Source: a virus. Taken from it: a stretch of 39,562 nt of DNA. The stretch lies in the IMG/VR virus record IMGVR_UViG_3300044643_002859, positions 1 through 39,562 of that record. One strand, written 5' to 3'. Positions within the stretch are counted from its first letter, which is position 1, and the number at the start of each line of letters is the position of its first letter. This document shows positions 3,168-34,352 of the stretch, piece by piece. The translations under genes and the position numbers were made by a program. The notes beneath the pieces are model-generated. The model was not told the DNA's origin, did not search any database, and saw nothing but the letters and a program-made list of their open reading frames with translations.

Positions 3168-3473
3168 ATGAAAACTTTTTATCAGTATCTTGAAGGATTG
3201 TTTGACTTTGCACCACATGTGAACCCAATTAGGGCTATGGATGATGAATTTATCAACAAAACTATAGCACAATTTAAAAATGTGCCAGTAACTATTTTGC
3301 AGGATTATGTCCAAGCTAAATTGAAAAACGATAAAGTCAAAATAGAAAAATTAACAATTCCATTAATGCTTGCTTGCAAATCTTTGCCTTTATATCGACA
3401 AATAAATAGTTATATTGATATTGAATTGAAAAAAAGAAGAGAAGAAAGTCATGCTGCTTGGAATAGCAAATAA
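3168..3473 (+). CDS. Small putative capsid-cargo protein
   Basis: 101 aa with a good Shine-Dalgarno site (GAGG eight bases before ATG) and an AT-rich TATATAT stretch further upstream. The first residues, MKTFYQYLEGLF, match the tag shared by about twenty proteins in this window; YLE would be the protease-type tripeptide. The rest is a mostly helical, charged sequence (TIAQFKNVPVTILQDYVQAK) with no recognised domain. It is the leftmost tagged gene, separated from the main cargo block by the glycan genes. Packaging into the head is an inference from the tag; function unknown. Confidence 0.6.
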   Translation: MKTFYQYLEGLFDFAPHVNPIRAMDDEFINKTIAQFKNVPVTILQDYVQAKLKNDKVKIEKLTIPLMLACKSLPLYRQINSYIDIELKKRREESHAAWNSK

Positions 3474-3479
3474 TTAACA

Positions 3480-3508
3480 TTGACATAATGTTACAATAAA
3501 ATTACAAT
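3480..3508 (+). promoter_or_regulatory. Sigma70-type promoter
   Basis: A consensus -35 TTGACA (3480-3485) is followed after exactly 17 bases by TACAAT (3503-3508), a near-consensus -10. It lies in the short gap before the 85-aa gene at 3552 and points toward it. The match suggests transcription by unmodified host RNA polymerase, as for an early gene. Confidence 0.7.
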
Positions 3509-3551
3509 TATTTTTTGAAAATCAATCAATTTATGAAAAGCATAAGGTTTC

Positions 3552-3809
3552 ATGAGTAACAAGAAAAGTGTATATGTGTTGGCCATCCAAAAGAATAACG
3601 AAGTATCTGTTCTTGGTTGTTTTTATTCCTTGGAAGTTTTAGTAACTCATTTCATAAAATTTTGCAAAAGTAAATTTAACAGGATTCCAGATGCTGCTAT
3701 GTGCAAAAAAGTTGTTCAAATGCAAGCTTCTGAAGAGTGGCATCCTCTTGGTCATGGATATGAAGAAAAAATGAAAATTTTCTATTCTGTTCTTTATATT
3801 TCCGAATGA
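3552..3809 (+). CDS. Small hypothetical protein under an early-type promoter
   Basis: 85 aa, unrecognised. It sits alone behind a strong sigma70-type promoter (3480-3508) with a weak AAGG ribosome site. The sequence has an N-terminal strand-like segment (VYVLAIQKNNEVSVLGCFY), a basic middle with two cysteines (HFIKFCKSKF, AAMCKK) and an HPLGHGYEEK turn, suggesting a small folded globular protein. It lacks the capsid-targeting start of its neighbour. Its own promoter and small size fit an early host-interaction protein, but nothing in the sequence names a target. Confidence 0.55.
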   Translation: MSNKKSVYVLAIQKNNEVSVLGCFYSLEVLVTHFIKFCKSKFNRIPDAAMCKKVVQMQASEEWHPLGHGYEEKMKIFYSVLYISE

Positions 3810-3829
3810 ATGTTCAACGCAAAAAAATC

Positions 3830-4501
3830 TTATCTGTAATTATTTTTTTTTAAGATTACACAATCTTTTCCAACAATACATTCCTTTTCACAATATTGCA
3901 ATAAATAATTTAAACCTTTTTCTGTTGATATATTTTTTCCGTTTTCACTCCAAGATGTATCATCAAAGAATATGTATCCACCTTTTTTAACCTTTGGAAA
4001 ATAACTTACAGAGTCTTGATAGGCAAGTTTTTCGCAGTGATTTCCATCAATGTGTAAAATATCAATAGATTCATCTTTAAATTCATTTATTACATTTTCT
4101 GATTTATCTCTATAGATTTTACAAAATGAATCCACTTTATAAAATTTTAATTGGCTAGTAAAATTTTTATAAATTTCATCTAGATTTATTTTTGACCACC
4201 ATTCTTTATTCTCATCTTTTTCCATGTCTTCTAATGCAGCATCATGTGTCCAAGGATCGATACCAACTACGATTCCATCATTATTATCTTTCATCGCAAG
4301 AGCTTGTGGAATTAAAGACGAACCTCCAAAAACTCCAATTTCTACACATAATTTTGCCTTAGATTCTGTAATGATATCGTAAAATTTTTGTGCCTTATCT
4401 TCATCGCACCAACCAAGAATTTTTTTGTGTTCATTTTTAATAAATTCAGAAAATGTCATTGTTGCTTGATTTACCAAATTTTTATAAATTTGGAAGGACA
4501 T
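3830..4501 (-). CDS. Class I SAM methyltransferase (Methyltransf_24-like)
   Basis: 223 aa. Motif I is VEIGVFGGSSL (53-63). GIDPW (80-84) is the usual acidic loop of the family, and ILHIDGNHCEKLAYQDSVS (148-166) with KKGGYIFFDD (172-181) gives the conserved acidic/His pair and post-motif strand. Members of this family are often found beside glycosyltransferases, where they methylate sugars. It is divergent from the glycosyltransferase at 4602 and has the same family signature as the methyltransferase at 5698. The ribosome site is poor (AAAGG directly abutting ATG). The substrate is not visible. Confidence 0.75.
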   Translation of the reverse strand: MSFQIYKNLVNQATMTFSEFIKNEHKKILGWCDEDKAQKFYDIITESKAKLCVEIGVFGGSSLIPQALAMKDNNDGIVVGIDPWTHDAALEDMEKDENKEWWSKINLDEIYKNFTSQLKFYKVDSFCKIYRDKSENVINEFKDESIDILHIDGNHCEKLAYQDSVSYFPKVKKGGYIFFDDTSWSENGKNISTEKGLNYLLQYCEKECIVGKDCVILKKNNYR

Positions 4502-4601
4502 CCTTTATTGCCCAATTAAGAATTAGTTATCATTATTGTATCATATTTTTTTGTTTTTTAAAAATTATATTTTTTTGATTAGCCTACATAAATAAGTTAT
4601 T

Positions 4602-6297: not shown

Positions 6298-6308
6298 AAA
6301 TTTTTGAT

Positions 6309-7409: not shown

Positions 7410-7423
7410 TTAGTTCACTGATT

Positions 7424-8211: not shown

Positions 8212-9384
8212 TTATAGAATGTTTTGTGATAATATATATTCTTTTAAAATCTTAATTTTTTCCAATACTTTTGCAATATCGAATTTTTCTCCATACTTTT
8301 CTCCAGCTTTGATTGATTGCAAATGGGCCAAACTAATTCCAGAACCTGTACCTTCTGGATCTACTTTTTGCAAAAATCCCTTTTCTTTGTCAATCATGTC
8401 TCTTGTATTGCTTTTTACTTTGTATGGGTTTATTTTAAATTCTTGATCATTAACATTTAATTTTATTTTATTTGAATCGCCAATGTCATTAGATTTTATA
8501 ATTTTGTCATTTACTATTTTGCACCAATCATCCCACATGATTTTAGAAATGCTATCGCCATATAAGTCTTGCAAGGCATCAAGAAAACTAACATATCCTT
8601 TCAAACCAATACCACTTGTTTTTACATTTGTATCAGTGACGGTATTACCTTTTTTGTCGGTTATATTTACAAAATTACCAAGAGCGTCTTTTTTGGTCTT
8701 ACTTTTTTTAGTGGTTAAACTAAAGCCAGATTTTTTTGGGTCTTTTTCTATATCGGCACGAATCATTTTGTCATACGCTCTCATATTAACAGAATCTACA
8801 CATCCATATTTTCCTATGATTAATTGAGTTGCAAAAGCAGCTTTTACAGCAGCAAGTCCTTTTATGTTGTCTACAATATACTCGAAAATTTTAAAATCAG
8901 AAGAATCTGATAAGGAAGTAGATTCACCTTTATTCATGAGCGATGTTATACCATTATAAATAGTATCTTTTTTTTCCCATAATTCTTCGAGATATCTCGC
9001 CTTACTTTCTCCTTTTTTGGAACCAAGTAGATTTGCCTGTTTTGCAAACGATTGGCCAGCATAATCCCAAGCATTTATCTTATTTTTTTTTGTTTTATGT
9101 ATCGCATCTTCAAAAACCCATTTTAAAAAATCTGGAAATGTTTGATGAACTATCTGCCACTCTTTTTGAATTGTGTAAAAAACAAATGCAAAAACTATAA
9201 ACATATTTGTTGAATTTTTTTGAGCAAATGCATTTATTTCTGGATTGTGTAGACAAAAACCACTTACTTTACTGCTTTTTGGCTGACCCAATTTTATTTC
9301 ATCGGAAGACCCATAAGGATAAATTTTCTCTTTATCTAATGTGGCTATCTCCATTTCGTTAAAAAACCATTGTTTAAAATTCAT
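8212..9384 (-). CDS. Capsid-tagged protein with helix-hairpin-helix, glycosylase-like motif
   Basis: 390 aa, good ribosome site (AAGGGA). The N-terminus MNFKQWFFNEMEI carries the shared tag with FNE as the tripeptide. In the middle, IKGLAAVKAAFATQLIIG followed by KYGCVDSVNMRAY looks like the helix-hairpin-helix plus VDTH-type Asp of HhH-GPD DNA glycosylases (EndoIII family), with the usual G-x-G loop altered. Proteins with this motif but no known activity are frequent in T4-like phages. The C-terminal third is Lys-rich with a TDKKGNTVTD-type insert and no motif. It may bind or repair DNA packed in the head; catalytic activity is doubtful without the full active site. Confidence 0.5.
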   Translation of the reverse strand: MNFKQWFFNEMEIATLDKEKIYPYGSSDEIKLGQPKSSKVSGFCLHNPEINAFAQKNSTNMFIVFAFVFYTIQKEWQIVHQTFPDFLKWVFEDAIHKTKKNKINAWDYAGQSFAKQANLLGSKKGESKARYLEELWEKKDTIYNGITSLMNKGESTSLSDSSDFKIFEYIVDNIKGLAAVKAAFATQLIIGKYGCVDSVNMRAYDKMIRADIEKDPKKSGFSLTTKKSKTKKDALGNFVNITDKKGNTVTDTNVKTSGIGLKGYVSFLDALQDLYGDSISKIMWDDWCKIVNDKIIKSNDIGDSNKIKLNVNDQEFKINPYKVKSNTRDMIDKEKGFLQKVDPEGTGSGISLAHLQSIKAGEKYGEKFDIAKVLEKIKILKEYILSQNIL

Positions 9385-9440
9385 AATTTTTCCCTTCTTA
9401 ATATTTGATTTTATATATGATCAAAACAATATATAAAATT

Positions 9441-9941
9441 ATGAAAAGCTTTAAAAATTGGTTTAATGAAAATTTCGATAATGTCTTTATGCATCCTAAT
9501 CGTAAAAGGGCTGTAAGTGTATTGGATAGCTCTAATGGATTAGTTTACAAGACTAAAAATCCACCAATAGAATCATTACCAGAAGGTGCAACAGAAATAA
9601 GCAACCCTCACATAACATTAATAGATCCTAGCGAAATGCAAGAATTTAAAAAGAAAATTAAAGAACTATTAGAAAAAGATTATCCAGAATTGCAAGACTT
9701 GCCAAAGCCAGTCTTTGGAAGACAAGTTGTAATTACTCGCCATAATGGAAATCAATTTGTTATTGCAGATATATCTAATCAAGAAGATTTTCACAATTAT
9801 GTTTCAAAGATATGGAGAAAGTTAGAAGTTCCTAACAAAGAAAGAAAATATTTTTACATGACACTTGCTAATAATAGTAATGGAGATCCATTGGTTCTTA
9901 CAGGAGACATTACTAAAAGAAACTTTGAGGAAAAATCATGA
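9441..9941 (+). CDS. Capsid-tagged 2H-phosphoesterase-like protein, second His lost
   Basis: 166 aa from the ATG at 9441, chosen because it gives the shared tag MKSFKNWFNENFD; the frame is open from 9405 but the extra residues do not look coding. The first 2H motif is intact (NPHITLID, H57-x-T59). At the place of the second, the sequence reads YFYMTLANNS (Y139-x-T141) where family members have His-x-Thr/Ser, so one catalytic His is replaced. 2H phosphoesterases open or make 2',3'-cyclic phosphates or 2'-5' bonds; T4 Acb1, which destroys CBASS signals, belongs here. This copy may be a binding protein rather than an enzyme. It overlaps the next tagged gene by four bases. Confidence 0.5.
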   Translation: MKSFKNWFNENFDNVFMHPNRKRAVSVLDSSNGLVYKTKNPPIESLPEGATEISNPHITLIDPSEMQEFKKKIKELLEKDYPELQDLPKPVFGRQVVITRHNGNQFVIADISNQEDFHNYVSKIWRKLEVPNKERKYFYMTLANNSNGDPLVLTGDITKRNFEEKS

Positions 9942-10372
9942 ATTTTAAAAATTGGATTGAAAGCGAACAACCTTTAAAATCTATAAAAGAAATAGAATCT
10001 TTAAAGCCAATGATAATATCAAAAGCTCAACATATTTATGATAATTGGAAACAAGATGATCAAGGACATGATGAAGAATATGGTGGTGGTGGCATTTGTC
10101 ATAATATCGCAGATGAAATCGCAAGTGTTTTAAATGATAATGGAATTGATGCAGCTACAGTTTCTGCTACAGTTGGAACACAACATGTTTACACAATTGG
10201 AAAATTTCAAGAGGGTGTTTATGAAATTGATATTTATCCAAGCACATATGAGACTGGTGCAGCTTATACTTGGAAAAAAATACCTAATGTTAAATTCGAC
10301 AATGATGACATTGTTGTTAGCAGAATAGATAGTGATCCAGAATCATTTGATACTTACATGGAAGATTTTTAA
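9938..10372 (+). CDS. Capsid-tagged papain/transglutaminase-fold-like protein
   Basis: 144 aa; its ATG overlaps the preceding stop (ATGA). The N-terminus MNFKNWIESEQ is the shared tag, and a later IKE (16-18) fits the protease tripeptide. A Cys at the start of a helix after a glycine run (YGGGGICHNIADEIASVL, C54), a His in a strand (GTQHVYTIG, H83) and an Asp in the next strand (GVYEIDIYP, D98) come in the Cys-His-Asp order and spacing of small papain-like, NlpC/P60-like and transglutaminase-like enzymes. It could be a protease, amidase or deamidase acting after injection. The fold call is from motif order only. Confidence 0.5.
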   Translation: MNFKNWIESEQPLKSIKEIESLKPMIISKAQHIYDNWKQDDQGHDEEYGGGGICHNIADEIASVLNDNGIDAATVSATVGTQHVYTIGKFQEGVYEIDIYPSTYETGAAYTWKKIPNVKFDNDDIVVSRIDSDPESFDTYMEDF

Positions 10373-10440: not shown

Positions 10441-11235
10441 ATGATTAATATGAAAAGTTTTAATTTGTACTTGGTTGAGAAACAATTCGTTAAATTAAAC
10501 TCTTTAAAAATGAAAGATATCTATTGTTTGAATGAATCAGATCAAGTAAATGAAATTCTATCGTTAGCTGCAATTGGTGCGTACAAAACGGCAAAGGCTG
10601 GTTTGTCAGCAGCATATAATGTAACGAAATTCGGAATGTCAGTTTTAAAAAAAATAATTGGAATAAAACCCCAAAAAATAGAAGAAGAAATTAAAGACAA
10701 AGATAAAAAAATTGTTATCAAAGAATTTTTGAAAAGTGCAGTAAAAAAATTAGGTATAGTTGTAGTTGTTGGAGCATTGTTATATCTTGGATTGCAACAT
10801 GGAGTTATCACAGATTTACTCAGTTGGACGGGGCAAATGGCTTACAAAGCATTGATGTATATTTTGGGTCTTGGAGGAAACACCATTTGGAAAATATTAA
10901 TGGAAGCTTGGAATGCAATAAAAGATTTTGCTGGTGCTATTGGTGATTATATTGGTGCTATTGTTTCAAAAACTGGAGAGCTTGCGGAAGATCAAATGGA
11001 AAAAGTAGGTCAATATATGAAGGATTTATTTAAGAAAACTGGTGGAACATTTGGGAATCCCGATGGTGGTAATCCTTGGGAAAACCCACAAGAAAAAGAT
11101 TGGCAAGGCAATCAGCGTACTGTTTTAACACCAAAAGAAAGCCCAAAACCAATAGACTGGGATGGATTAAAAGATACTTTTGGCTCAGACAAAAAAAAAT
11201 TAGATCCAAATATTTTAAATTTTAAAAGTAATTAA
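10441..11235 (+). CDS. Capsid-tagged membrane-active-like internal protein
   Basis: 264 aa. Ribosome site GAGG lies four bases before ATG, the same spacing as in the following gene. The start is MINMKSFNLYLVEKQF, with the tag after a three-residue extension and LVE as the tripeptide. A strongly hydrophobic segment at 104-124 (GIVVVVGALLYLGL) and a second at about 133-150 could cross a membrane, and the rest is helical; the C-terminus is polar, Pro/Asn/Gly-rich. Head proteins ejected with DNA may enter the envelope, which would suit such segments. No relation to a named family is recognised. Confidence 0.55.
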   Translation: MINMKSFNLYLVEKQFVKLNSLKMKDIYCLNESDQVNEILSLAAIGAYKTAKAGLSAAYNVTKFGMSVLKKIIGIKPQKIEEEIKDKDKKIVIKEFLKSAVKKLGIVVVVGALLYLGLQHGVITDLLSWTGQMAYKALMYILGLGGNTIWKILMEAWNAIKDFAGAIGDYIGAIVSKTGELAEDQMEKVGQYMKDLFKKTGGTFGNPDGGNPWENPQEKDWQGNQRTVLTPKESPKPIDWDGLKDTFGSDKKKLDPNILNFKSN

Positions 11236-11244: not shown

Positions 11245-11787
11245 ATGATTACATTTCAGTCTTTTTTAAAAAAACAAATTTTAATAGAAAAGATAAATAT
11301 TGATGCCTTTCAATTTCCGCCATTAGCATATGGAAGTTTTGGCAAATACTTTATAGCAGGTGATGGAGAAATACATTATCAAGTTGCAGGAGAAGGCGGA
11401 AATCAAAATGGAATCGCTCATGTAAATAACTTCTTGCCAATATATCAAAAATTCTTTTCTCAACATATAACACCAGAAATGGCAAAACAATTTAAAGAAA
11501 AATATACAAAAAACATGGCAGATGAAAAAGATGAGATATCAAAAAACAATTTGCCATTCCCAGAAATTTTTAATTCGCCATTTGCGAAGTGGATTGTAGA
11601 TAATGATGAAGTAATTTATAAAATAAAAACAGCACAGGGAGAACAACAAGGGATTTCTTCAATCAAGGAATTTGATGCTTACTATAAACAAAATATTGCT
11701 AACTTCGGAAACAATCAATTGGCAAATATAAATCCAGAAGAAAAAGAATCTATCAAACAAAAGTTGAATAAAGAAATCGAAAAATAA
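11245..11787 (+). CDS. Capsid-tagged protein with two internal repeats
   Basis: 180 aa, ribosome site GAGG four bases before ATG, nine bases after the preceding gene. The start MITFQSFLKKQILIEKIN is a variant of the shared tag ending in LIE. Two related halves follow: FGKYFIAGDGEIHYQVAGEG...NGIAHVNNFLPIYQKFF (about residues 32-75) and FAKWIVDNDEVIYKIKTAQG...QGISSIKEFDAYYKQNI (about 113-155). Each looks like a small beta-hairpin plus helix unit. The C-terminus is charged and helical. No catalytic residues stand out; a duplicated ligand-binding or protein-binding domain is the simplest reading. Confidence 0.55.
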   Translation: MITFQSFLKKQILIEKINIDAFQFPPLAYGSFGKYFIAGDGEIHYQVAGEGGNQNGIAHVNNFLPIYQKFFSQHITPEMAKQFKEKYTKNMADEKDEISKNNLPFPEIFNSPFAKWIVDNDEVIYKIKTAQGEQQGISSIKEFDAYYKQNIANFGNNQLANINPEEKESIKQKLNKEIEK

Positions 11788-23457: not shown

Positions 23458-24963
23458 ATGAACTTTAAACATTGGTTAATATCTGAAGAAATATTCCCCA
23501 ATAAGACCGCAACAGTCTATCATAGAACAAGAAGTCTCAAAGATGTATCAGGCATACTCACATCTGATTTTAAAGCAGGTGCAGGTGCAGGTTGCTCTTA
23601 TGGTTGTGGTCTTTATACTACTTATAAAATAGAAAGCCAATTTGTCGATTATATGGAAATGTATGGCGAAGCATTAGTCAAATTTAAAGTAACAGACCTC
23701 GATAAATACCTCATATTTCAATTGTCTGAGGCAAAACAAATACATGGCAATGATTATAAAATTAGCAGTCAATTTAAAAAATTAGGACTACTAAACAAAC
23801 CAAATGTAAATGAAAGTAAATTAGAATATTACGATAAACGACAAGAAAAAGAAAAATTTTCATCAGTTTTGGCATATGAATTCTATGAACAAAATAATTG
23901 GATAGAAAAGTCGGTAAAAGGAATTATCTATTATGGATCAAGAGATGGTTATTGTTTAGTTAAATATCCAACAGTTCAAGATAAAACAATAACCATGTTG
24001 GGCTATGCAGTCGCAAAATATGATGATATGAAAAAGATGGAAGAACTGAAAAGTAATATTGGTTGGATTAAATCAGTTGGTATATTAGGTACACCCATTA
24101 AAAATGTTTATAAATCTCCAATCGAAAATAAAGAAAAGTTTGCATTTGGAGATTATAGCGAAATCGAAAATGTCAAAAATATTTTTTTAACATCTAAAAA
24201 CTTAGAAAAAACAGCAAAAAAATTAGGATTATATCTAGACAAATTTTCTGATGAGAATATTTCTGGTTTGCTTCATCATGCAGAAGATAAAGACAAAATG
24301 GCAGAAGTGATTGCAAAATATAAAACAGAACTTACCGATTGGAATGTTTTTCATTTGCTTCATTATGCAACCGACAAAGACAAAATAGCAGAACTAATTA
24401 TAAAATATAAAACAGAACTTACTGATGAGAATGTTGAAAATTTGCTTCGTACTGCAACCAACAAAGACAAAATAGCAGAATTAATTGTTAAAAATAAACC
24501 AGAACTTTCTAATATGAATATTTATAGCTTGATTCAGTTTGCAACCGACAAACAAGATAAAATAGCAGAACTAATTATTGAAAAGAAATCAAAACTTTCT
24601 GGTAAACATGTTGAATTGTTGCTTCGTAAAGCAACAGATAAAGACAAAATAGCAGAACTAATTATTGGAAATAAACCAGAACTTTCTTATTTCGATGTTC
24701 AATATTTGCTTAATTTTGCAAACGATAAAGAAAAAATAGCAGAACGATTACAAGAAAAAGAAGACAACATAAGCAAGCTTGATGATCAAAGTGTTATTGA
24801 TTTATTTCATGATGATGCAAACGATAAAGACAAAATAGCACAAATAATAAACAAATACCACACAAAGAAAACTCCAAAAATTCAAGAATTCATTGATAAA
24901 TACAGCAGCGGATATAAATTAAATTTAGGTAAAAAAGTTCTATCAACTGGATCATTTACATAA
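23458..24963 (+). CDS. Family A cargo protein: tag + ADP-ribosyltransferase-like domain + helical repeats
   Basis: 501 aa, starting three bases after the previous stop. Tag MNFKHWLISEEIFPNK with ISE. Its ADP-ribosyltransferase-like residues are H22 in VYHRT, Y53 in GCGLYTT and the strand SRDGYCLVKY (161-170); compared with the 723-aa paralogue it lacks the TCxxC insert. About eight 29-residue repeats follow from residue 235. The C-terminus GKKVLSTGSFT differs from the AIAAK end of its relatives, so its 3' end has been replaced or has drifted. No separate ribosome site is visible, suggesting coupling to the gene before it. Confidence 0.58.
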   Translation: MNFKHWLISEEIFPNKTATVYHRTRSLKDVSGILTSDFKAGAGAGCSYGCGLYTTYKIESQFVDYMEMYGEALVKFKVTDLDKYLIFQLSEAKQIHGNDYKISSQFKKLGLLNKPNVNESKLEYYDKRQEKEKFSSVLAYEFYEQNNWIEKSVKGIIYYGSRDGYCLVKYPTVQDKTITMLGYAVAKYDDMKKMEELKSNIGWIKSVGILGTPIKNVYKSPIENKEKFAFGDYSEIENVKNIFLTSKNLEKTAKKLGLYLDKFSDENISGLLHHAEDKDKMAEVIAKYKTELTDWNVFHLLHYATDKDKIAELIIKYKTELTDENVENLLRTATNKDKIAELIVKNKPELSNMNIYSLIQFATDKQDKIAELIIEKKSKLSGKHVELLLRKATDKDKIAELIIGNKPELSYFDVQYLLNFANDKEKIAERLQEKEDNISKLDDQSVIDLFHDDANDKDKIAQIINKYHTKKTPKIQEFIDKYSSGYKLNLGKKVLSTGSFT

Positions 24964-24980: not shown

Positions 24981-26546
24981 ATGAACTTTAAAGAATGGCT
25001 AATATCTGAAGAAATCTTCCCCAATAAGACTGCAACTGTCTATCATAGAACTTGTCCTGGTTGCGATGAAGAAAAAAGCGTTCAAGCTGTATCAAGCATA
25101 CTCACAAAAGATTTTAAAGTTGGTTCAGGTTGTATGTATGGTTGTGGTTTTTACACTACTTTTGCAATAGAAAGCCAATTTACTAATTACATGGAAACTT
25201 ATGGTAAAGCAGTAGTCAAATTTAAAGTAACAGATCTCGATAAATATCTTATATTTCAATTATCTGTGGCAAAACAAATACATGGCAAGGATTACAAAAT
25301 AAGCGATCAATTAAAGAAATTAGGAGTATTAAACAAAGTAGATGAAAGTAAGTTGAAAGAATACGATGAACAACAAGAAAAAGAAAGCTTTTCATCGGTT
25401 TTGGCGGTAAAATTCTACGAAAAAAACAAATGGATAGAAAATTCGGTAAAAGGAATTATTTATTATGGAGCAAATGATGGTTATTGTTTAGTTAAATATG
25501 AACCAGTCCAAGATGGAACAATAACCATGTTGGCCTATGCAGTTGCAAAATATGATGATATGAAAAAGATGGAAGAACTTAAAAATCCAAAATCAAAAAA
25601 TTGGATTATTTCCACCGATAAGGCAAGTATTAAAAGTATTTATAAATCACCAATATCTAATAGAGAAAAATTTTCATTTGGCGAAGATGACAATGTCCAT
25701 ATTATGAATCAATTGTTAAAATCTAAAAATGTAGAATACACAGCAAAAAAATTAGGATCAAATCTAAACCAACTTTCTCAAGATAATGTTGGCGTTTTAC
25801 TTTATAAGGCAACCGATAAAGAAAAAATGATAGAAGTAATTATAAAGTATAAAACAAAACTTTCTGACAAAGATGTCAGCACTTCAATTATGAATGCAAA
25901 GGAAAAAGATATAATAGCAAAATTAATTATTGAAAAGAAACCAGAACTTTCTGATCATAATGTTTTTCATTTGCTTTCTTATGCAGATAACATAGACAAA
26001 ATAGCAGAACTAATTATTGAAAAGAAACCAGAACTTTCTGATGATAATATTTATTATTTGCTTCTTAAGGCAAACAATAAAGAAAAAATAGCAGAAATAT
26101 TGCAAAAAGAAAAAGACAATATAAGCAAACTTTCTAATCTTCTTATTCGTGATTTGATTGCAAGAGTAAATGACAAAGACGAGATGTTAAAAATAATCAT
26201 AAAATACAAACCAGAGCTTTCTGAGGATAATGTTTATTATTTTATTTTTAAAGCAAACGACAAAGACAAAATAATAGAATTAATCATAAACAAACTATCA
26301 AAAATAGATATTGAAAATGGTGTTCGTGATTTGATTCGATATGCAAAAGACCAAGAAAAAATAGCAGAATATATTATGAAAAAGGAACCAGAACTTTCTG
26401 ATGATGGTGTTTATCGTTTGCTTGTTGCTGTAACCGACAAACCAAAAATCGCACAAATCATAAACAAATATCACACAAATAAAACATCAGAAATTCAAGA
26501 GCTAATCGATAAATACCTTGAACCTCAAGCAATAGCTGCAAAGTAA
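24981..26546 (+). CDS. Family A cargo protein: tag + ADP-ribosyltransferase-like domain + helical repeats
   Basis: 521 aa. Tag MNFKEWLISEEIFPNK (ISE). It shares the TCPGCDEE insert and GSGCMYGCGFYTTFAIESQ with the 723-aa protein, so these two are the closest pair in the domain. ANDGYCLVKYEP provides the later strand. Eight to nine helical repeats follow and the protein ends in AIAAK. Three bases later starts the tagged Nudix gene, then family B; the order A-Nudix-B here and A-B at 30328 suggests duplication of a module. The conserved extra cysteines (TCxxC, GCxYGC) might bind a metal in this subgroup. Confidence 0.58.
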   Translation: MNFKEWLISEEIFPNKTATVYHRTCPGCDEEKSVQAVSSILTKDFKVGSGCMYGCGFYTTFAIESQFTNYMETYGKAVVKFKVTDLDKYLIFQLSVAKQIHGKDYKISDQLKKLGVLNKVDESKLKEYDEQQEKESFSSVLAVKFYEKNKWIENSVKGIIYYGANDGYCLVKYEPVQDGTITMLAYAVAKYDDMKKMEELKNPKSKNWIISTDKASIKSIYKSPISNREKFSFGEDDNVHIMNQLLKSKNVEYTAKKLGSNLNQLSQDNVGVLLYKATDKEKMIEVIIKYKTKLSDKDVSTSIMNAKEKDIIAKLIIEKKPELSDHNVFHLLSYADNIDKIAELIIEKKPELSDDNIYYLLLKANNKEKIAEILQKEKDNISKLSNLLIRDLIARVNDKDEMLKIIIKYKPELSEDNVYYFIFKANDKDKIIELIINKLSKIDIENGVRDLIRYAKDQEKIAEYIMKKEPELSDDGVYRLLVAVTDKPKIAQIINKYHTNKTSEIQELIDKYLEPQAIAAK

Positions 26547-26549: not shown

Positions 26550-26999
26550 ATGAACTTTAAAGAATGGCTAATACTGAAAGAAGAGACATCAACTGATACA
26601 GATCATTCTAAATTTAAAACATCTGTAATAGGACTTTTAAATGATAATAAAGTCTTAATACTAAAAAGAGGATCTACTGCTCCTTGGATGCCAAACAAAT
26701 GGAGCTTAGTAGGTGGCGGAATTGAAGAAGGAGAAAACCCAAAAGAAGCCATAATAAGAGAGTGCCTTGAAGAAATAGGATTAAAACCAAATAATGTTTC
26801 TTTTGATCATAAAATAATGACTGTTGATGCTGGAGAGATTTATTATTTTTATGGAGAATTAGAAAGTCAAAATATAAAATTAGATTATGAAAATTCAAAT
26901 TATAAATTTATTACAAAAGATGAAATAAATAATTATGATTTTGTTCCATACATAAAAGAATTTATATTAAGTGTTTTTTCAAAAAAGATAACCCAATGA
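26550..26999 (+). CDS. Capsid-tagged Nudix hydrolase
   Basis: 149 aa. The start MNFKEWLILKEETSTD is the shared tag (LKE) and is followed by a complete Nudix domain: TSVIGLLNDNKVLILKRG, then the box at residues 56-78 (G-x5-E-x7-RECLEEIGL). A normal Nudix would begin near residue 22, so the first twenty residues are an added signal. Carrying a Nudix enzyme inside the head next to probable ADP-ribosyltransferases points to ADP-ribose, NAD or nucleotide signals as substrates, as inference. It overlaps the family B start by four bases (ATGA). Confidence 0.82.
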   Translation: MNFKEWLILKEETSTDTDHSKFKTSVIGLLNDNKVLILKRGSTAPWMPNKWSLVGGGIEEGENPKEAIIRECLEEIGLKPNNVSFDHKIMTVDAGEIYYFYGELESQNIKLDYENSNYKFITKDEINNYDFVPYIKEFILSVFSKKITQ

Positions 27000-28447
27000 A
27001 CTTTAAAGAATGGCTACTACTGACAGAAAAGATAATGATAAAGGATCAAGAATTCCGTGAGCCTCTTATTGCACTACAATATATTCGAAAAAATCACCCT
27101 TTCCCCAACACACTAGCCGTAACTTTTACCAAAATCGATAAAGTTGGTCTTAATCCAGAAAGCAAATATGAAACACCACTTGGCATTTATCTCTATCCTA
27201 TAGATTATGTAATTGAAAAGAAAATGAATGTTCCATTCGCTGCAAATCAACCTTATATTAATGTCTGCGAATTCACAAGACCACAAAAAATATTACATAT
27301 GAATCCCGATGTGTCTAAACAAGATGGAATGGAACTACTCAATGTTTTTCCAAAAGAACAAGTAGATCAAGCTATTAAAGAAATTAATCCATCAGTAGAC
27401 ATGTTCAATAAAGCTCAAAAATTATCAGATCACAAAAAAACCAAACTGAATAATCTTCAATATGATCAAGAAAAAGAAGATGATCTTTATAAAAAGTATA
27501 TTGATGCCAAAACTTATTATGATTATGTAAAAGATGAATTGCAAGGAGCAGCATACCAACTTCGTAGCAATTACTCCAAATTGTGGATCGTAACAAGAAT
27601 ACTTGCAAATAGAAAAATCACACAATGGAACGCCAATCTTAGAAAATGTGGAATAGATGGATTTGTAGATCATGGAACTGGAACAATTCATCCAAGCGAA
27701 CCAACCCAATGCGTTGTTTTTGCTACCAGTGCCTTGAAACTACTTCACTCAATTGACAACTCAACATACTTCAAAAAAACAGATAAATATAATAGCAATA
27801 AGATGTCAGATGAACAAATTATAGGCTTATTGCAATCTCGTAGATCTTTAGATCTTACAAACTTGTTTAAAAATACAACAGAAAAAGAAAAAATGGCAGA
27901 TCTAATCATAAAATATAAAACATATATTTCTCATGTCGATGTTGAAGATTTGATTTATCATGCAAAAGATAAAGACAAAATGGCAAAAATGATTATTCAA
28001 AAAACCCCAGAATTTACAGATAGTAATGTTTCATATATGATCTCACTCGTAAACGATAAAGATAAAATCATAGAATTGATTATTGATTATAAAACAAAAC
28101 TTACTGATAATAATGTCGAAAATTTTCTTCAATATGCAACTGATAAAGACAAGATGGCAAATCTTCTTATAGAAAGATTACCAGAAATGACTTATAAAAA
28201 TATGATCAATATTCTAACTTATGCAATTGATAAAGACAAAATAGCAAAAAAATTAGGAGAAGATAATATAAGTAGACTTAATTGGTTTTCTATCACACTT
28301 TTACATGAAAAAGTTCCAGAAAAAGATAAACCAAAAATAATACAAATTATAGAAAAATATCATAAAAATAAAAATGAAAAAATTAAAGAGTTTTTAAAGC
28401 ATGAACAGGATTCTTTGCCCATATATCCCACTGACCATTTTCAGTAG
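26996..28447 (+). CDS. Family B cargo protein: tag + possible ADP-ribosyltransferase-like domain + helical repeats
   Basis: 483 aa. Tag MNFKEWLLLTEKIM (LTE). The domain at 20-255 has VTFTKIDKVGLNP, YETPLGIYLYPIDYV (Y65 in the GIY triplet), NQPYINVCEF and GIDGFVDHGTGTIHPSEPTQ with VVF after it (E235-x-x-Q238). The GIY strand followed later by E-x-x-Q before a VVF strand resembles phage polyvalent ADP-ribosyltransferase domains; the usual first His appears changed to Thr. About six 29-residue repeats close the protein. Its end (EHEQ-like tail to TDHFQ) differs from its paralogue and overlaps the convergent gene by 65 bases, marking a rearrangement. Confidence 0.5.
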   Translation: MNFKEWLLLTEKIMIKDQEFREPLIALQYIRKNHPFPNTLAVTFTKIDKVGLNPESKYETPLGIYLYPIDYVIEKKMNVPFAANQPYINVCEFTRPQKILHMNPDVSKQDGMELLNVFPKEQVDQAIKEINPSVDMFNKAQKLSDHKKTKLNNLQYDQEKEDDLYKKYIDAKTYYDYVKDELQGAAYQLRSNYSKLWIVTRILANRKITQWNANLRKCGIDGFVDHGTGTIHPSEPTQCVVFATSALKLLHSIDNSTYFKKTDKYNSNKMSDEQIIGLLQSRRSLDLTNLFKNTTEKEKMADLIIKYKTYISHVDVEDLIYHAKDKDKMAKMIIQKTPEFTDSNVSYMISLVNDKDKIIELIIDYKTKLTDNNVENFLQYATDKDKMANLLIERLPEMTYKNMINILTYAIDKDKIAKKLGEDNISRLNWFSITLLHEKVPEKDKPKIIQIIEKYHKNKNEKIKEFLKHEQDSLPIYPTDHFQ

Positions 28448-28916
28448 CATTGAAATAAACTTCAGAAGCAGACACAATTTCTTTATTTTCTGAATCATCA
28501 ATGGCATGAAACCATGGTGCATCTTCATTGAATGGATTATAAGTAATCTTTACCATACCGCTTGTATCATTATTAGTAGGAACAACTTTTCCAGAAACAC
28601 CAGCAATTAAAGTTCTTTTATCTTTTTCCATAATTTGTTTGGCACCAGATTCCGATGTTTGAAAAAAAATAGGTTCCGACAATCTTACTTCATTTGTATA
28701 TTTGCCAGCCAATCCTTTTTTTCTACCGCTTGGTGTAGTTTGATAAATACCAATCATGCCATTTAAACCCTGAATTTTATGAGTTCTATTAGTGTGAAAC
28801 CAGAGTCTTTGTCCTACTAAATCATTAGCATCAACATAACCTTCAACGGGTTTTCTAGAATCATAGTAATCTTCATTAATATCACGCACTTTTACATATT
28901 CATAAAAAGATTTCAT
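28383..28916 (-). CDS. Capsid-tagged protein of unknown function
   Basis: 177 aa with AAGG before the start. Tag MKSFYEYVKVRDINEDYY, with INE. The body is a mixed alpha/beta domain with RLWFHTNRTHKIQGLNGMIG, RKKGLAGKYTNEVRLSEPIF, KRTLIAGVSGKVVPTNND and NPFNEDAPWFHA as distinct pieces; I recall similar uncharacterised phage proteins but cannot name a function. It is convergent with family B and their ends overlap by 65 bases, which is unusual in this window. It is the first of three reverse-strand genes that split the forward cargo array. Confidence 0.55.
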   Translation of the reverse strand: MKSFYEYVKVRDINEDYYDSRKPVEGYVDANDLVGQRLWFHTNRTHKIQGLNGMIGIYQTTPSGRKKGLAGKYTNEVRLSEPIFFQTSESGAKQIMEKDKRTLIAGVSGKVVPTNNDTSGMVKITYNPFNEDAPWFHAIDDSENKEIVSASEVYFNATENGQWDIWAKNPVHALKTL

Positions 28917-30264: not shown

Positions 30265-30292
30265 AATATAACAAAATTTTTATTACACACAA
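30265..30292 (-). promoter_or_regulatory. Putative promoter of the serine recombinase
   Basis: On the reverse strand TTGTGT (30287-30292) is followed after 16 bases by TATATT (30265-30270), about 40 bases before the recombinase start. The fit to sigma70 consensus is moderate. The same 98-base divergent gap must also drive the family A gene at 30328, where a CATAAATA box stands four bases before the start. Confidence 0.4.
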
Positions 30293-30327
30293 GACTTATT
30301 TCCCGATTAAACTCACATAAATACCTT

Positions 30328-31803
30328 ATGAACTTTAAAGAATGGCTAATATCTGAAGAAATTTATGCTCAAAATAAGACTGCAACTGTCTATCATAGGA
30401 CAAATGTTGACTCTGTATCAAATATACTCACATCTGATTTCAAATCAGGAGCAGGTAAAGGTTGTTGGTATGGTTGTGGTCTTTATACTACTTATAAAAT
30501 AGAAAGTCAATTTACCGATTATATGAAAATGTATGGCGAAACATTAGTCAAATTTAAAGTAACAGACCTTGACAAGTACCTCATATTTGAATTATCTGAA
30601 GCAAAAAAAATCCATGGCAATGATTACAAAATAAGCAGTCAATTAAAGAAATTTGGACTACTAAACAAAGTAACTAAAGGGGAATTTGGTGGTCAAAAAG
30701 GCGACAACTTAAAACACTACGATGAACTACAAGAAAAAGAAACCTATTCGGCAATTTTAGCAAAAAAATTCTACGACCAAAATGATTGGATAGAAAAATC
30801 AATTAAAGGAATTATCTATTATGGAGCAAATGATGGCTACTGCTTAGTTAAATATCAACCAGTTAAAGATGAAACAATAACAATGTTGGGTTATGCGGTT
30901 GCAGAAGCAGATGCAAACGATGAACAAAAAATGAAAGATCTAAAGAGTAATATTGGCTGGATTACCTCCACCGATAAGGCAAGTATGAAAAGTATTTATA
31001 AATCACCAAACAGAGAAAAATTTTCATTTGGTTACAATTACGAAATCGGTAAAAGCATTTTTAATAAATTGTTAAATTCTAAAAATTTAGAAGCAGTAGC
31101 AAAATATTTAGGATCAAATCTAAACGAACTTTCTGATTTTGATGTCAGTCTTTTGATTAAAAAGTCAACAGATAAAGACAAAATGGCAGAAGTAATCATA
31201 AAGTACAAAACAAAACTTTCTGATACTAATGTTAAAGTTTTTCTTAAAAATTCAACTAAACAAAACGAAATAGCAGAACTAATTGTAAAATACAAAACAA
31301 AACTTTCTGATACAAATGTTGTTGATTTGTTACAAACTACAACAGACAAAGATAAAATAGCAAAACTAATTATAAACAAAAAAACAAACTTTTCTAGCAC
31401 TATAATCCAACTTTTACTTTATAGTGCATCCGATAAAGATAAAATAGCAGAAGCAATTATAAATAAAAAATTAGAACTTTCTTATCAAAGTGTTTATGAT
31501 CTGCTTATAAATTCAATAAACAAAGATAAAATAGCAGAACTAATTATAAAACACAAAACAGAAATTTCTGATGCCGATGTTATTACTTTACTTCGACATA
31601 CAATAGATAAAGAACAAATAGCAAAACTATTAGGAACAGATAATATAAACAAACTTTCTGATCAGAACATTATAAATTTACTTGATTATGAAAAAGACCA
31701 ACCAAAAATGGCACAAATACTAAATAAATACCACACAAATAAAACACCAAAAATTCAACAAGTAATCAATCAATACCTAACTCAAACAATAGCTGCAAAG
31801 TAA
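30328..31803 (+). CDS. Family A cargo protein: tag + ADP-ribosyltransferase-like domain + helical repeats
   Basis: 491 aa. Tag MNFKEWLISEEIYAQNK (ISE). The domain has VYHRTNVDSVSNIL, GAGKGCWYGCGLYTTYKIES and YGANDGYCLVKYQP, and carries a small insert (TKGEFGGQKGDN) near residue 120 that its paralogues lack. About eight 29-residue helical units follow, for example TDKDKIAKLIINKKTNFSS, and the end is QTIAAK. It restarts the array after the reverse-strand recombinase segment and is followed three bases later by a family B gene. The domain call shares the uncertainty of its paralogues. Confidence 0.58.
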   Translation: MNFKEWLISEEIYAQNKTATVYHRTNVDSVSNILTSDFKSGAGKGCWYGCGLYTTYKIESQFTDYMKMYGETLVKFKVTDLDKYLIFELSEAKKIHGNDYKISSQLKKFGLLNKVTKGEFGGQKGDNLKHYDELQEKETYSAILAKKFYDQNDWIEKSIKGIIYYGANDGYCLVKYQPVKDETITMLGYAVAEADANDEQKMKDLKSNIGWITSTDKASMKSIYKSPNREKFSFGYNYEIGKSIFNKLLNSKNLEAVAKYLGSNLNELSDFDVSLLIKKSTDKDKMAEVIIKYKTKLSDTNVKVFLKNSTKQNEIAELIVKYKTKLSDTNVVDLLQTTTDKDKIAKLIINKKTNFSSTIIQLLLYSASDKDKIAEAIINKKLELSYQSVYDLLINSINKDKIAELIIKHKTEISDADVITLLRHTIDKEQIAKLLGTDNINKLSDQNIINLLDYEKDQPKMAQILNKYHTNKTPKIQQVINQYLTQTIAAK

Positions 31804-31806
31804 ACT

Positions 31807-33204
31807 ATGAAATTTAAACAATGGCTAATACTAACTGAAAAGATAATGATAAAGGATCAAGAATTTCGTGATCCCCTTCTCGCACTACAACATATTCAAA
31901 AAACTCATCCCAATCCAGAAAACCTTGTCGTAACTTATACCGCAATCGATAAAGTTGGGATCAATCCAAAAAGCGAATATAAAACACCAATCGGAATTTA
32001 TTTTTATCCATTAAATTATGTCATTGAAAATGAAATGGATGTTCCATTCGCAGGAGATCAACCTTATCTCAATGTCTGCGAATTCACAAGACCACAAAAA
32101 ATATTACATATGAATCCTAGTGATGAAGAACAAAAAGGTATGGATATACTTTATAGTGGTAATGTTTTCTCGCTCAAAAAAGTTTACGAGGCTGAAGATA
32201 AAATAAAAAAAGATGAATATAATCTTCGTAGCAATTATTCTATGCTATGGCTTGTAACAAAAGCAATCGCAAATGACAAACCATCAGAATGGAACTCTAA
32301 TCTTAGAAAATGTGGTGTCGATGGATTCGTAGATCATGGAACTGGCACAATCCACCCTCAAGAATCAACTCAAGGTGTGGTATTCGCAAAAGATGCCTTA
32401 AAAGTCTTATACTCTATCGACAATAATATCATCGATAAAAATAAAAAAGGACAAATTGTCAAAAGAGAAAAATACAACCCAAATAAAATTTCTGACCAAC
32501 AACTGGATGCAATTCTTCAATCTCATAGAAATATTGAAGGAGTTCTAAAAAATACAACAGATAAAGACAAAATGGCAGAACTAATCATCAATAAAAAAAC
32601 AAATCTTTCTGATAATGATATTAAAAATTTGGCCTTTTATACAACAAACGAAGGTAAAGTTAAAATTGCAGAACTAATCCTAAAGAAAAAAACAAACCTT
32701 TCTGATGATAATGTATTGAAACTTCTTGGATATGCAGGTAGTCATAATGATCATATAGCACAATTAATTGTAAATTATAAACCAGAACTTTCTGATAATG
32801 ATGTCAGACATTTGACTTTATATTCAACCTATCCAGAACCAATTAAAAAACTTATAATAAATAAAAAACCCAAAATATCTTATAAAAATATTAAAGATCT
32901 TATTCATGATATTAAACCAATTTATGCAAAAAAAACAATAGAATTAATTATTGCTAAAGAATCAAAATTCTACGAAAGCAACATTATCGACTTAATTCGT
33001 TATGTGTTTGAAAGATATGACAAAGCAATGATAGAATGGATTGTATCTAAATTAAAAATATCTCCTCTCATTGCTTATTATCTATTTCACTATACAACCG
33101 ATAAAAAAGAAATGGCAAACCTAATAACAACATACCACGGAAATACACCAGAAATACAAGAGCTAATCAATAAATACTTACCTCAAACACAAGCTGCAAA
33201 GTAA
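31807..33204 (+). CDS. Family B cargo protein: tag + possible ADP-ribosyltransferase-like domain + helical repeats
   Basis: 465 aa. Tag MKFKQWLILTEKIM (LTE). It is paralogous to the 483-aa protein at 26996 over the whole N-terminal domain: VTYTAIDKVGINP, YKTPIGIYFYPLNYV, CGVDGFVDHGTGTIHPQEST and the VVF strand. It lacks about 25 residues of the helical insert present near residue 130-170 of the other copy. Its repeats are less regular, with longer units such as STYPEPIKKLIINKKPKISY. The end QTQAAK and the DNA after it form the shared gene junction. Absence of the first catalytic His in both copies leaves activity open. Confidence 0.5.
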   Translation: MKFKQWLILTEKIMIKDQEFRDPLLALQHIQKTHPNPENLVVTYTAIDKVGINPKSEYKTPIGIYFYPLNYVIENEMDVPFAGDQPYLNVCEFTRPQKILHMNPSDEEQKGMDILYSGNVFSLKKVYEAEDKIKKDEYNLRSNYSMLWLVTKAIANDKPSEWNSNLRKCGVDGFVDHGTGTIHPQESTQGVVFAKDALKVLYSIDNNIIDKNKKGQIVKREKYNPNKISDQQLDAILQSHRNIEGVLKNTTDKDKMAELIINKKTNLSDNDIKNLAFYTTNEGKVKIAELILKKKTNLSDDNVLKLLGYAGSHNDHIAQLIVNYKPELSDNDVRHLTLYSTYPEPIKKLIINKKPKISYKNIKDLIHDIKPIYAKKTIELIIAKESKFYESNIIDLIRYVFERYDKAMIEWIVSKLKISPLIAYYLFHYTTDKKEMANLITTYHGNTPEIQELINKYLPQTQAAK

Positions 33205-33207
33205 ATC

Positions 33208-33240
33208 ATGAACTTTAAACAAATTATAAAAATTTTATAG
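33208..33240 (+). pseudogene. Remnant start of a lost tagged gene
   Basis: ATGAACTTTAAACAA, the usual start of the cargo genes, follows the usual GCAAAGTAA junction but reads only MNFKQIIKIL before a stop. With the remnant at 33845 it marks the two ends of a cargo gene whose body has been replaced by the sulfotransferase-like gene between them. Confidence 0.75.
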
Positions 33241-33247
33241 GAATATT

Positions 33248-33844
33248 ATGAATAATTTAACACATATTTTTTGTGGAAATTACGGTGGAGGAACTTCATT
33301 TACCGCTAATTATTTGACATATTGCGGCTTTCCTTGTTGCCATGAAATGCTACATTATAATCCAGTTACTTCAATTTGGAATTACGGACCAAATGGAATG
33401 ATTGAATATGATGGAATTCCATTATACAAAATAGCAAAAGGAGAAAGTAATTACACTGCTATGGAATATTGTAACTATGAACCTATTTCAAAATTGCCCA
33501 TAGTTCTAATTTATAGGAATCCAATTTCTGTTTTAAATAGTCATTTGTGCATTCAAATTAATCATGGAGAAGTTTTTGATGTTAATTCTGCTATGGAAAA
33601 TTTGATTCAAAGATATCAGAAAATTCAAAACCATACAAGAGTTGAACTTAAAATAAGAATAGAAGATCAACTCGAAATTTTATGTGATTATCTTGGCATT
33701 CAATATAAAAAACCAGTTGATATCAATAGCAAAAAACATGTTCGTGGAAGAACAAAATTTGAACATAAAGATTTCATAAAATACAAAAATTATTCAAAAT
33801 TTAATGATTTTTGTCTATCGATAGGGTACTCAGTTACTGTTTAA
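33248..33844 (+). CDS. Sulfotransferase-like protein inserted into the cargo array
   Basis: 198 aa. The start THIFCGNYGGGTSFTANYLT holds a G-rich loop in the position of the PAPS 5'-phosphosulfate site (compare SGTGRCGT in the protein at 1005), and VLIYRNPISVLNSHL matches the 3'-phosphate region (RNP...S). It is short for the family (usually 240-300) and the loop is atypical, so activity is uncertain. It has no capsid tag and belongs in type with the glycan genes at the left end. It is flanked by the two ends of a destroyed cargo gene, and its stop is in the same frame as the right remnant. Confidence 0.6.
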   Translation: MNNLTHIFCGNYGGGTSFTANYLTYCGFPCCHEMLHYNPVTSIWNYGPNGMIEYDGIPLYKIAKGESNYTAMEYCNYEPISKLPIVLIYRNPISVLNSHLCIQINHGEVFDVNSAMENLIQRYQKIQNHTRVELKIRIEDQLEILCDYLGIQYKKPVDINSKKHVRGRTKFEHKDFIKYKNYSKFNDFCLSIGYSVTV

Positions 33845-33937
33845 ATATTTAAACTGGTAAAATATTACACAAAGAAAACACCAGAAATACAAGAACTAAT
33901 CGATAAATACTTAACTCAAACAATAGCTGCAAAGTAA
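33845..33937 (+). pseudogene. Remnant 3' end of a lost helical-repeat cargo gene
   Basis: The frame reads YYTKKTPEIQELIDKYLTQT and then IAAK and stop, matching the ends of family A and B proteins (KTPKIQQVINQYLTQTIAAK at 31803). It has no start of its own and lies in frame directly after the sulfotransferase-like stop codon, so stop readthrough would join this tail to that protein. It is the right-hand scar of a gene replacement. Confidence 0.8.
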
Positions 33938-33941
33938 CCCA

Positions 33942-34352
33942 ATGAACTTCAAAAACTGGATTGAAAACAGAGAAGATAAAAAAGTATCCTACTCTGCCAT
34001 TGTCTTAAACCAACAAAGCCATGAAAAATTATTGGATGAACTTAAAGAATATATACCAGAAAATTGGAAGACTTTTGCTCACCATATGACTATCAATTTG
34101 GGAAAACTTAACCCACCAGAAGATTCTCTTATCAACCAAGAAGTTAATCTAATAGCATCGGAAATAGGAATAAGTAATATGGCTATTGCCGTTAAAGTAA
34201 ATGGATTCAAAAGCAATAACAAAATACCTCATGTAACTATAGCAGTTAATACACTCGCTGGAGGTAAACCAGCTATGAGCAATGATATTACTGATTGGCA
34301 TCCAATCCAAAATATCAAACTAACAGGAACAGTATCGGAAATCACCAAATAA
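33942..34352 (+). CDS. Capsid-tagged 2H phosphoesterase
   Basis: 136 aa. Tag MNFKNWIENREDKK, then a compact 2H domain with both catalytic motifs intact: FAHHMTINLG (H48-x-T50) and KIPHVTIAVN (H97-x-T99), spaced as usual. Enzymes of this fold open 2',3'-cyclic phosphates, ADP-ribose cyclic phosphates or 2'-5' linkages. T4 Acb1 of this superfamily removes cyclic-nucleotide signals of the CBASS defence. A head-delivered copy would act at once after injection; which substrate is cut is not visible. It is the last tagged gene in the window and follows the gene-replacement scar by four bases. Confidence 0.75.
   Translation: MNFKNWIENREDKKVSYSAIVLNQQSHEKLLDELKEYIPENWKTFAHHMTINLGKLNPPEDSLINQEVNLIASEIGISNMAIAVKVNGFKSNNKIPHVTIAVNTLAGGKPAMSNDITDWHPIQNIKLTGTVSEITK

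Follow-up and report, generated by a model that had tools for sequence, protein, structure and literature searches.

A common N-terminal tag with the layout of the T4 capsid-targeting sequence suggests a shuffled head-cargo gene array in a huge phage

Twenty genes spread across positions 3,168-34,352 of the viral record IMGVR_UViG_3300044643_002859 from IMG/VR (positions 1-39,562; this whole stretch of 39.5 kb is hereafter the window) encode proteins that begin with a common tag, in which an aromatic residue is followed three positions on by a second aromatic and then by an aliphatic residue, all within the first ten residues; MNFKEWLISEE and MKTFSQYIEHRNVNEA are examples. We consider it highly probable, judging from the sequences at hand, that this tag is a capsid-targeting sequence (CTS) of the kind carried by the internal proteins of phage T4, and that the window holds head-cargo genes, in a shuffled array, of a huge phage whose head is T4-like. 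The suggestion of head cargo had been made in the original prediction, and it gains support from the tag's T4 CTS spacing and from the relative LR756511, in which a gp20-gp23 module occurs together with 36 tagged genes.

To count the tag we defined a strict pattern, M.{1,2}[FY]..[WYF][LIVF] at the first ATG, and applied it to non-overlapping open reading frames (ORFs) of at least 60 residues. All 20 listed frames are present in the window, where 16 of 45 ORFs carry the strict tag against an expectation of 0.22 (binomial P 7e-26), a figure based on the occurrence of the pattern at 54 of 10,947 internal positions. Paralogues make these ORFs non-independent, and the 16 strict matches amount to 12 body families. 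When the first 25 residues were removed and the bodies compared by BLASTP, the full set of 20 proteins fell into 15 families, with six proteins (18589, 23458, 24981, 26996, 30328 and 31807; genes are named here by a start or first coordinate) linked by common repeats. The tag therefore sits on bodies from 15 otherwise unrelated families, and the claim that twenty unrelated proteins share it stands as regards the tag itself (16 strict matches and four from a later start) and overstates their unrelatedness. A search beyond the window, which had been proposed as a check, found tagged ORFs in the remaining sequence of this virus too (10 of 181), at a far lower density than the 36% seen in the window.

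The tag has the layout of the T4 signal. IpII and IpIII of the T4 record start MKTYQEFIAEA, and IpI starts MKTFKEFTSTTTPVSTITE (MKTFKEFTSTTTPVSTITEA). In the IPIII signal, residues 4 and 7 direct targeting and residues 8 and 10 processing, while T4 propeptides span 10-19 residues and gp21 cuts after L/I-x-E (passages of PMC9026906). The window tag likewise places F at residue 3 or 4, W, Y or F three on, L, I, F or V next, and then xE, and its earlier description as capsid-targeting-like is supported by an aromatic spacing equal to that of the T4 CTS. At the level of sequence the resemblance is one of layout, and the residues differ: the usual ones are F-K-E/N/Q-W-L in the W-rich window virus, F-K/R-E/Q-W/F-L in LR756511 and Y-Q-E-F-I in T4.

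The candidate cleavage site was then compared between tagged and untagged proteins. An [LIVMF]xE tripeptide with its E at residues 9-17 is found in 16 of the 20 tagged proteins and in 32 of the 188 untagged ORFs from this virus, a set that may still include the four later-start window ORFs, and the remark that most tagged proteins have such a tripeptide near the N-terminus thus holds. With the narrower [LI]xE the counts are 11/20 and 19/188, and a control stretch at residues 30-42 gives no excess (4/20 tagged, 43/188 untagged). The same excess at 9-17 recurs in LR756511 (15/36 tagged vs 147/862 untagged, P 6e-4) and in the related contigs G007 (8/14 vs 50/276, P 2e-3) and G011 (4/5 vs 15/102, P 3e-3), and in none of them does it extend to residues 30-38 or 50-58. 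When the six cultured phages other than T4 were pooled, no significant excess was seen (4/10 vs 277/1428). Support for the site is thus statistical, and actual cutting by a protease is what we would expect by analogy.

Near-identical contigs, namely G004 (165 kb), G002 (93 kb) and G003 (85 kb), extend the window leftward to a total of ~184 kb; a search for contigs reaching past either known end gave none beyond those already known. The DNA polymerase III alpha of this virus served as a lead to huge-phage relatives. It is of the DnaE type and split, with 50% identity to its counterpart in LR756511, an uncultured phage of 595 kb that is the nearest large genome found; other large relatives are LR745206 (635 kb) and LR756502 (642 kb), and the records of all three are unannotated. 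The two parts of the polymerase lie in distant genes (G004 91871-94612 (-) and 103923-105272 (-); loci L014 and L015), and both match a single LR756511 protein of 1179 residues. Sixty of the 238 proteins of the window virus are common to LR756511, and the gene order is similar (Spearman 0.74 for 43 pairs outside the window); against T4, BLASTP gave a match for one of the 238. Because of these shared proteins in similar order, the most likely source of the window is a huge phage whose head module would lie in sequence outside the ~184 kb.

LR756511 does have a recognisable head module, with gp20, gp21 (an S77 protease, E 6.7e-28), a protein in the gp22 position and gp23 within ~10 kb, gp22 being named from position and similarity only. 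Identity to the corresponding proteins of contig G001, which was found via the tag itself, is 50-80%. The S77 profile search was positive in 7/7 cultured T4-superfamily controls, in 4/4 related contigs and also in G001; the protease is present in LR756511, G001, G007 and G011. The strict tag is in excess in these genomes as well, at 36 of 1005 ORFs in LR756511 (5.4 expected), 14/294 in G007 (1.1 expected) and 5/109 in G011 (0.4 expected). A position matrix trained on the window likewise placed 11/294 ORFs of G007 (0.29 expected) and 8/109 of G011 (0.11 expected) above the 99.9% null level. Across 80 gp21 loci, which were not dereplicated, 71 of 1115 ORFs are tagged against 3.5 expected, with 45 distinct N-termini, and small tagged ORFs stand beside gp20 and gp21.

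Within the window, the DNA that encodes the tag bears signs of exchange. From the ATG, genes 24981 (repeat family), 26550 (Nudix) and 26996 (a different N-domain) differ by at most two mismatches over 25-33 bases and then diverge, and near-identical tag DNA is also found in 30328 and 31807. For 26550 and 31807 the likeness includes the 26 bases upstream of the ATG (at most two mismatches), because both follow the same gene end (...IAAK stop). Directly after 31807 lies a tag remnant, MNFKQIIKIL followed by a stop (33208..33240, +), and at 33860..33941 (+) the remnant of a repeat-family cassette 3' end, which matches the ends of 24981, 30328 and 31807 at 86-90% identity; together these bracket an unrelated gene at 33248-33844. 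Near-identical tag DNA on unrelated genes and the remnants of a lost cassette indicate shuffling. The tags of 9938, 13967, 8212, 13120 and 28383 differ in codons and residues and keep the spacing, so the array seems to be a mixture of recent copies and old tags.

Homologues elsewhere occur with and without the tag. The window's CCA-adding enzyme has a match on 10 of 15 gp21-bearing contigs searched, and 8 of the 12 distinct homologues examined are tagged, with bodies 27-38% identical and tag variants that include MKSFNEWLVES, MKNFSEYLMFRE, MRKTFLEYVGLKE and MRTKFEEYLLFKE, with MPQHRATNFREYILLRE assigned by eye only. The enzyme starts MRTTFLEFMGLKEA in LR756511, and tag-like by eye in the 635 kb (MILKKYKMFLES) and 642 kb (MIITKYAKFLES) phages. 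One tagged CCA-adding enzyme, on locus L344 (contig G029, 459 kb), has ~280 extra N-terminal residues before its nucleotidyltransferase part and a total of 720 residues. For the 2H-like protein 33942, residue 17 aligns with residue 2 or 3 of two untagged homologues that have no in-frame tag upstream; a third homologue is tagged (MKFSQWFAEMD), as is that of LR756511 (MMNFAQWVENE). A tagged C39 peptidase encoded elsewhere in the window virus (G004 21882-22394; Peptidase_C39 over its Pfam cut-off) has a homologue in LR756511 that is also tagged. As these alignments read, the tag is an add-on to otherwise homologous bodies. A pair of putative HExxH metallopeptidases, G004 72666-73136 (+) and LR756511 303354, are ~40% identical and both bear a tag.

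Several results weigh against the head-cargo reading. The window-trained matrix ranked IpI fifth, below threshold, and IpII and IpIII outside the top five, and in seven cultured phages it gave 0-2 matches each, six in total, none of them a T4 internal protein. The N-terminus of Alt, a known T4 head protein, does not match the pattern. Four of the 20 window proteins (9441, 10450 in the ORF opening at 10441, 12650 and 18589) show the tag, or a near variant of it, only from a later ATG, the 12650 tag MKEYTFKKFLEQ fitting only a relaxed pattern with a longer lead, and four (3168, 9938 with its E at residue 18, 17734 and 33942) lack [LIVMF]xE at 9-17. Profile searches did not recognise the S77 protease (gp21), gp20 or gp23 in the ~184 kb of the window virus, whose own protease is thus unseen; since gp20 and gp23 are missing together with gp21, the ~184 kb appear to be a fragment without the head module. 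The gp21-like protease that the original prediction had proposed to look for was found in LR756511, with its head module and 36 tagged ORFs, and not in the ~184 kb of the window virus. In the 484 kb phage LR756508, S77 and gp23 are over cut-off and 2 of 71 ORFs are tagged in 60 kb, while LR745206 (1/99, 60 kb) and LR756502 (3/135, 80 kb) have S77 matches below cut-off; from these low counts, the protease is no guarantee of the tag. By eye, we found no late-promoter motif tied to the tagged genes or common with gp20/gp23 of relatives; an enrichment of TATATAT-like words is a general feature of the sequence upstream of genes. On gp21-bearing contigs, 4/12 CCA-enzyme homologues and 2/3 2H homologues are untagged, as is the Nudix homologue in LR756511. 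Finally, among 56 body-matched pairs with LR756511 the strict tag is on both members in one and discordant in four (P 0.15), and with the relaxed pattern these counts are three and four (P 0.003), a moderate agreement only.

We weighed three other explanations of the common N-terminus. It might send proteins to another phage structure, such as the scaffold core only, a nucleus-like shell, the inner membrane or the tail, its bearers then being assembly helpers or compartment residents. Hydrophobic segments give 10450 and 13120 a structural look, and the small tagged ORFs inside the head module of relatives would suit such a role. However, ordinary enzymes (CCA-adding, Nudix and C39 peptidase) are tagged, the recognised head module is of T4 type, and the xE enrichment at 9-17 in three other genomes, along with the T4 CTS layout, fits head cargo, so we regard a different destination as unlikely.

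A second possibility, that the N-terminus is a by-product of duplication or of cassette exchange at conserved 5' ends and has no targeting role, draws on the near-identical tag DNA of 24981, 26550, 26996, 30328 and 31807 and on the cassette remnant around gene 33248. We think it very unlikely, given that the tags of 9938, 13967, 8212, 13120 and 28383 keep their spacing with other codons and residues, and that the pattern and the xE excess appear again in LR756511, G007 and G011. The divergent CCA-enzyme homologues with tag variants of their own, together with this recurrence, led us to reject a pure duplication artefact. The third explanation is chance, or faulty annotation where the genome is AT-rich and N-termini are rich in aromatics. 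A few matches do occur in cultured phages, with 5/359 ORFs in KVP40 (1.4 expected), 3/296 in P-SSM2 (1.0) and 2/208 in phiW-14 (0.5), some of which may be real tags; T4 has 3/241, and there are none in S-PM2 (0/220), phiM12 (0/317) or HTVC008M (0/179). The counts in the window and in LR756511 reject this explanation, to which we give next to no credence, and T4-type targeting to the head remains our preferred reading.

The tagged genes differ widely in size and predicted function; in the starts given below, a slash follows the E of the candidate site. At the left of the array, 3168..3473 (+, 101 residues) starts MKTFYQYLEG with no xE at 9-17, and 8212..9384 (-, 390 residues; MNFKQWFFNE/M) has no family match. 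The 166-residue product of 9441..9941 (+; MKSFKNWFNE/N), whose ORF has its first ATG upstream at 9417, gave a weak 2H-SAK match below cut-off, and 9938..10372 (+, 144 residues; MNFKNWIESE) is the protein earlier labelled Cys-His-Asp, with no family match of note. Further on are 10450..11235 (+, 261 residues; MKSFNLYLVE/K), with hydrophobic segments; 11245..11787 (+, 180 residues; MITFQSFLKKQILIE/K); the tag-like 12650..13105 (+, 151 residues; MKEYTFKKFLE/Q), whose start lies inside a longer ORF and fits the relaxed pattern only; and 13120..13965 (+, 281 residues; MKTFSQYIEHRNVNE/A), which is hydrophobic and weakly similar to 21297. Gene 13967..15214 (+, 415 residues; MKFKQWLFSE/E) encodes a CCA-adding or poly(A) polymerase-type nucleotidyltransferase (PF01743, 86.9 bits, cut-off 23). 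Its PolyA_pol head domain, over cut-off, places it by profile in the CCA-adding/poly(A) polymerase family, in which either activity is possible; it matches the NCBIfam CCA enzyme PRK13299 at 1.1e-35, below the equivalog cut-off, and a tRNA nucleotidyltransferase PHROG at 1.3e-40. No xE site is present in 17734..18516 (-, 260 residues; MKFKIWLEND).

The largest tagged protein, 18589..20760 (+, 723 residues; MNFKHWLLSE/E), has a YHRT...GCGLYTT N-domain followed by ~33-residue repeats and no Pfam match over cut-off; tagged paralogues of it are 23458..24963 (+, 501 residues), 24981..26546 (+, 521 residues; MNFKEWLISE/E) and 30328..31803 (+, 491 residues). From its motif this N-domain may be a putative ADP-ribosyltransferase; no ADP-ribosyltransferase profile matched in Pfam (18589, 23458, 24981, 30328), PHROGs (18589, 24981) or NCBIfam (24981 N-domain), and the AlphaFold models made for the two largest N-domains among the tagged proteins averaged pLDDT 40 and 42 and were not used. 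For 24981 there was no tblastn match in the phage collection and no solved relative. Gene 26996..28447 (+, 483 residues; MNFKEWLLLTE/K), with its tagged paralogue 31807..33204 (+, 465 residues), has an N-domain unlike that of 18589 and the same C-terminal repeats. The repeats (DKDKIAELIIKYKxELSDxNVxxLL...) thus occur between 18589 and 33204 in six tagged proteins with two different N-domains. The remaining genes are 22882..23454 (+, 190 residues; MITFIEWLLE/N); the Nudix hydrolase 26550..26999 (+, 149 residues; MNFKEWLILKE/E; PF00293, 62.4 bits, cut-off 21.1); 28383..28916 (-, 177 residues; MKSFYEYVKVRDINE/D) of the Phage_L5_gp82 family (PF25735, 35.7 bits, cut-off 27); and 33942..34352 (+, 136 residues; MNFKNWIENRE), a tRNA_lig_CPD-like 2H-phosphoesterase-like protein (PF08302, 20.8 bits, below the cut-off of 23). 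This last protein had chance-level matches only among solved structures, and its tagged LR756511 homologue reaches 35.8 bits for tRNA_lig_CPD, over cut-off. Of the domain labels proposed earlier, Nudix and nucleotidyltransferase are therefore over their Pfam cut-offs, 2H falls below its own and Cys-His-Asp is left without a family match of note. The Pfam matches over cut-off support a broader range of enzyme types than in T4, as had been proposed: the window has PolyA_pol, NUDIX and Phage_L5_gp82, another part of the virus has Peptidase_C39, and the LR756511 homologue has tRNA_lig_CPD. In relatives, Pfam searches of 10 tagged LR756511 proteins gave three with a match at 0.01, two of them over cut-off, and 10 tagged or tag-like proteins of G007 and G011 gave one match, below cut-off.

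Other features of the window and its relatives were recorded alongside. A second common N-terminus, MSxYxNQxxIxExxWWxS..., is borne by the products of 7795-8199 (-, 134 residues) and 21297-22865 (+, 522 residues), 34% identical over the first 70 residues, and a pattern scan found it in only those two proteins among the sequence scanned. Inside the tagged array, 11788-12618 (-) encodes a tandem repeat protein rich in Gly, Phe and Gln whose N-terminus is signal-like, and 28958-29248 (-) a Tyr/Asn-rich protein with homologues on the gp21-bearing loci L100 and L107. Beyond the array, the 798-residue product of 36102-38498 contains a unit that ends in YPSDIEVAKAHGLPDDW nine times over and has a C-terminus unrelated to it. 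The right end, 39400-39562, is by eye a tandem repeat of TTGAGTAAACCTTCAATTTGAGTAACCCTATTATT, and it is here that this record and a further two assemblies of the virus all end, within ~90 bases of each other. Among related loci, a tagged P-loop protein (AAA_33; L037:4051-5606 (-)) adjoins a tagged AAT-family protein ~2.6 kb from a gp21 gene, and a SpoVR-like protein (L015:6018-10124 (-)) is split by an intein with LAGLIDADG domains. The window-trained matrix placed three cyanophage ORFs above null, S-PM2 L174:3952-4479 (+) and P-SSM2 L204:269-529 (+) and L206:18143-19417 (+), whose starts (MIETFYEWFEG, MKSFKQFLEEA and MKSFSQFLTET) may be cyanophage tags.

Taking over packaging, cleavage and injection each from T4, we infer the following sequence of events. 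The aromatic-x-x-aromatic-aliphatic N-terminus would dock the protein on a gp22-type scaffold core during prohead assembly; an S77 (gp21-type) prohead protease would then cut after [L/I/V/M/F]-x-E, mostly 9-17 residues in, and release the mature enzyme inside the head; and the enzymes would be ejected with the DNA, to be active before any phage gene is expressed. Since the presumed cargo comprises a CCA-adding enzyme, a tRNA-ligase-CPD-like 2H protein, a Nudix hydrolase, a cysteine peptidase and putative ADP-ribosyltransferases, its composition suggests RNA repair and counter-defence, less firmly than the tag argues for targeting. We are inclined, with some reserve, to picture a single interchangeable capsid address on recombining cassettes, by which tens of enzymes would be pre-loaded, including an RNA-repair and counter-defence kit that would act at DNA entry, earlier than newly expressed genes could respond to the defences of the host. 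It has been argued that jumbo phages use their CCA-adding enzymes and 2H phosphoesterases to repair RNA cut by host defences (passages of PMC7824862).

Cargo addressed by a CTS is already known in T4, and N-terminal head signals are known in P1 and SPN3US. What appears new is the occurrence of one tag on many unrelated bodies, in a cassette array and in a clade of huge phages; among the papers listed by searches of an open-access library, none was seen from its title or abstract opening to describe a CTS shared by many enzymes or present in huge phages. If this is true, the injected protein cargo would be far larger and more varied than that of T4, and the tag would predict from sequence which of hundreds of unknown proteins of huge phages are delivered to the cell along with the DNA. 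It would become possible to test for early counter-defence by these phages, and the tag could be used as a sequence signal that directs proteins into large phage heads. Tagged CCA-adding and 2H enzymes of this clade would then reach the cell pre-made, which goes beyond the RNA-repair idea as set out in passages of PMC7824862. In the excerpts of a 2026 jumbo-phage review (PMC13282480), Tad1, injected by phiKZ, is called the sole anti-defence protein as yet reported from jumbo phages.

Of the systems already known, the closest is the set of T4 internal proteins IPI, IPII and IPIII, in which the two aromatics likewise stand three positions apart, an xE site follows at 10-19 residues and the bodies are unrelated, and whose S77 prohead protease has counterparts in relatives of the window virus. 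They are three small proteins, whereas the window holds 20 genes in 40 kb with 15 body families, several enzymes and cassette shuffling; the second aromatic is followed by I in IPII and IPIII and by T in IPI, and the window tag often has W at the second aromatic where the T4 proteins have F. T4 Alt is similar as a large head-packaged enzyme, the largest tagged family of the window being putative ADP-ribosyltransferases by their motif, and it differs in an N-terminus outside the tag pattern. SPN3US and phiKZ package many different proteins in the head, several of them cut by the prohead protease; several of their propeptides exceed 100 residues, however, and the excerpted text of PMC5694885 describes no single interchangeable tag. 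In P1, the N-terminal 30 residues of DarB are enough to bring a reporter to the head, but the excerpted text of PMC9024508 describes no enzyme family with a common tag and compares the P1 capsid with those of HK97 and T5. The published account of huge phages (PMC7162821) uses neither 'prohead' nor 'protease' in its main text. The huge phages LR756511, LR745206 and LR756502 are the nearest large relatives, and LR756511 combines a head module with 36 tagged ORFs.

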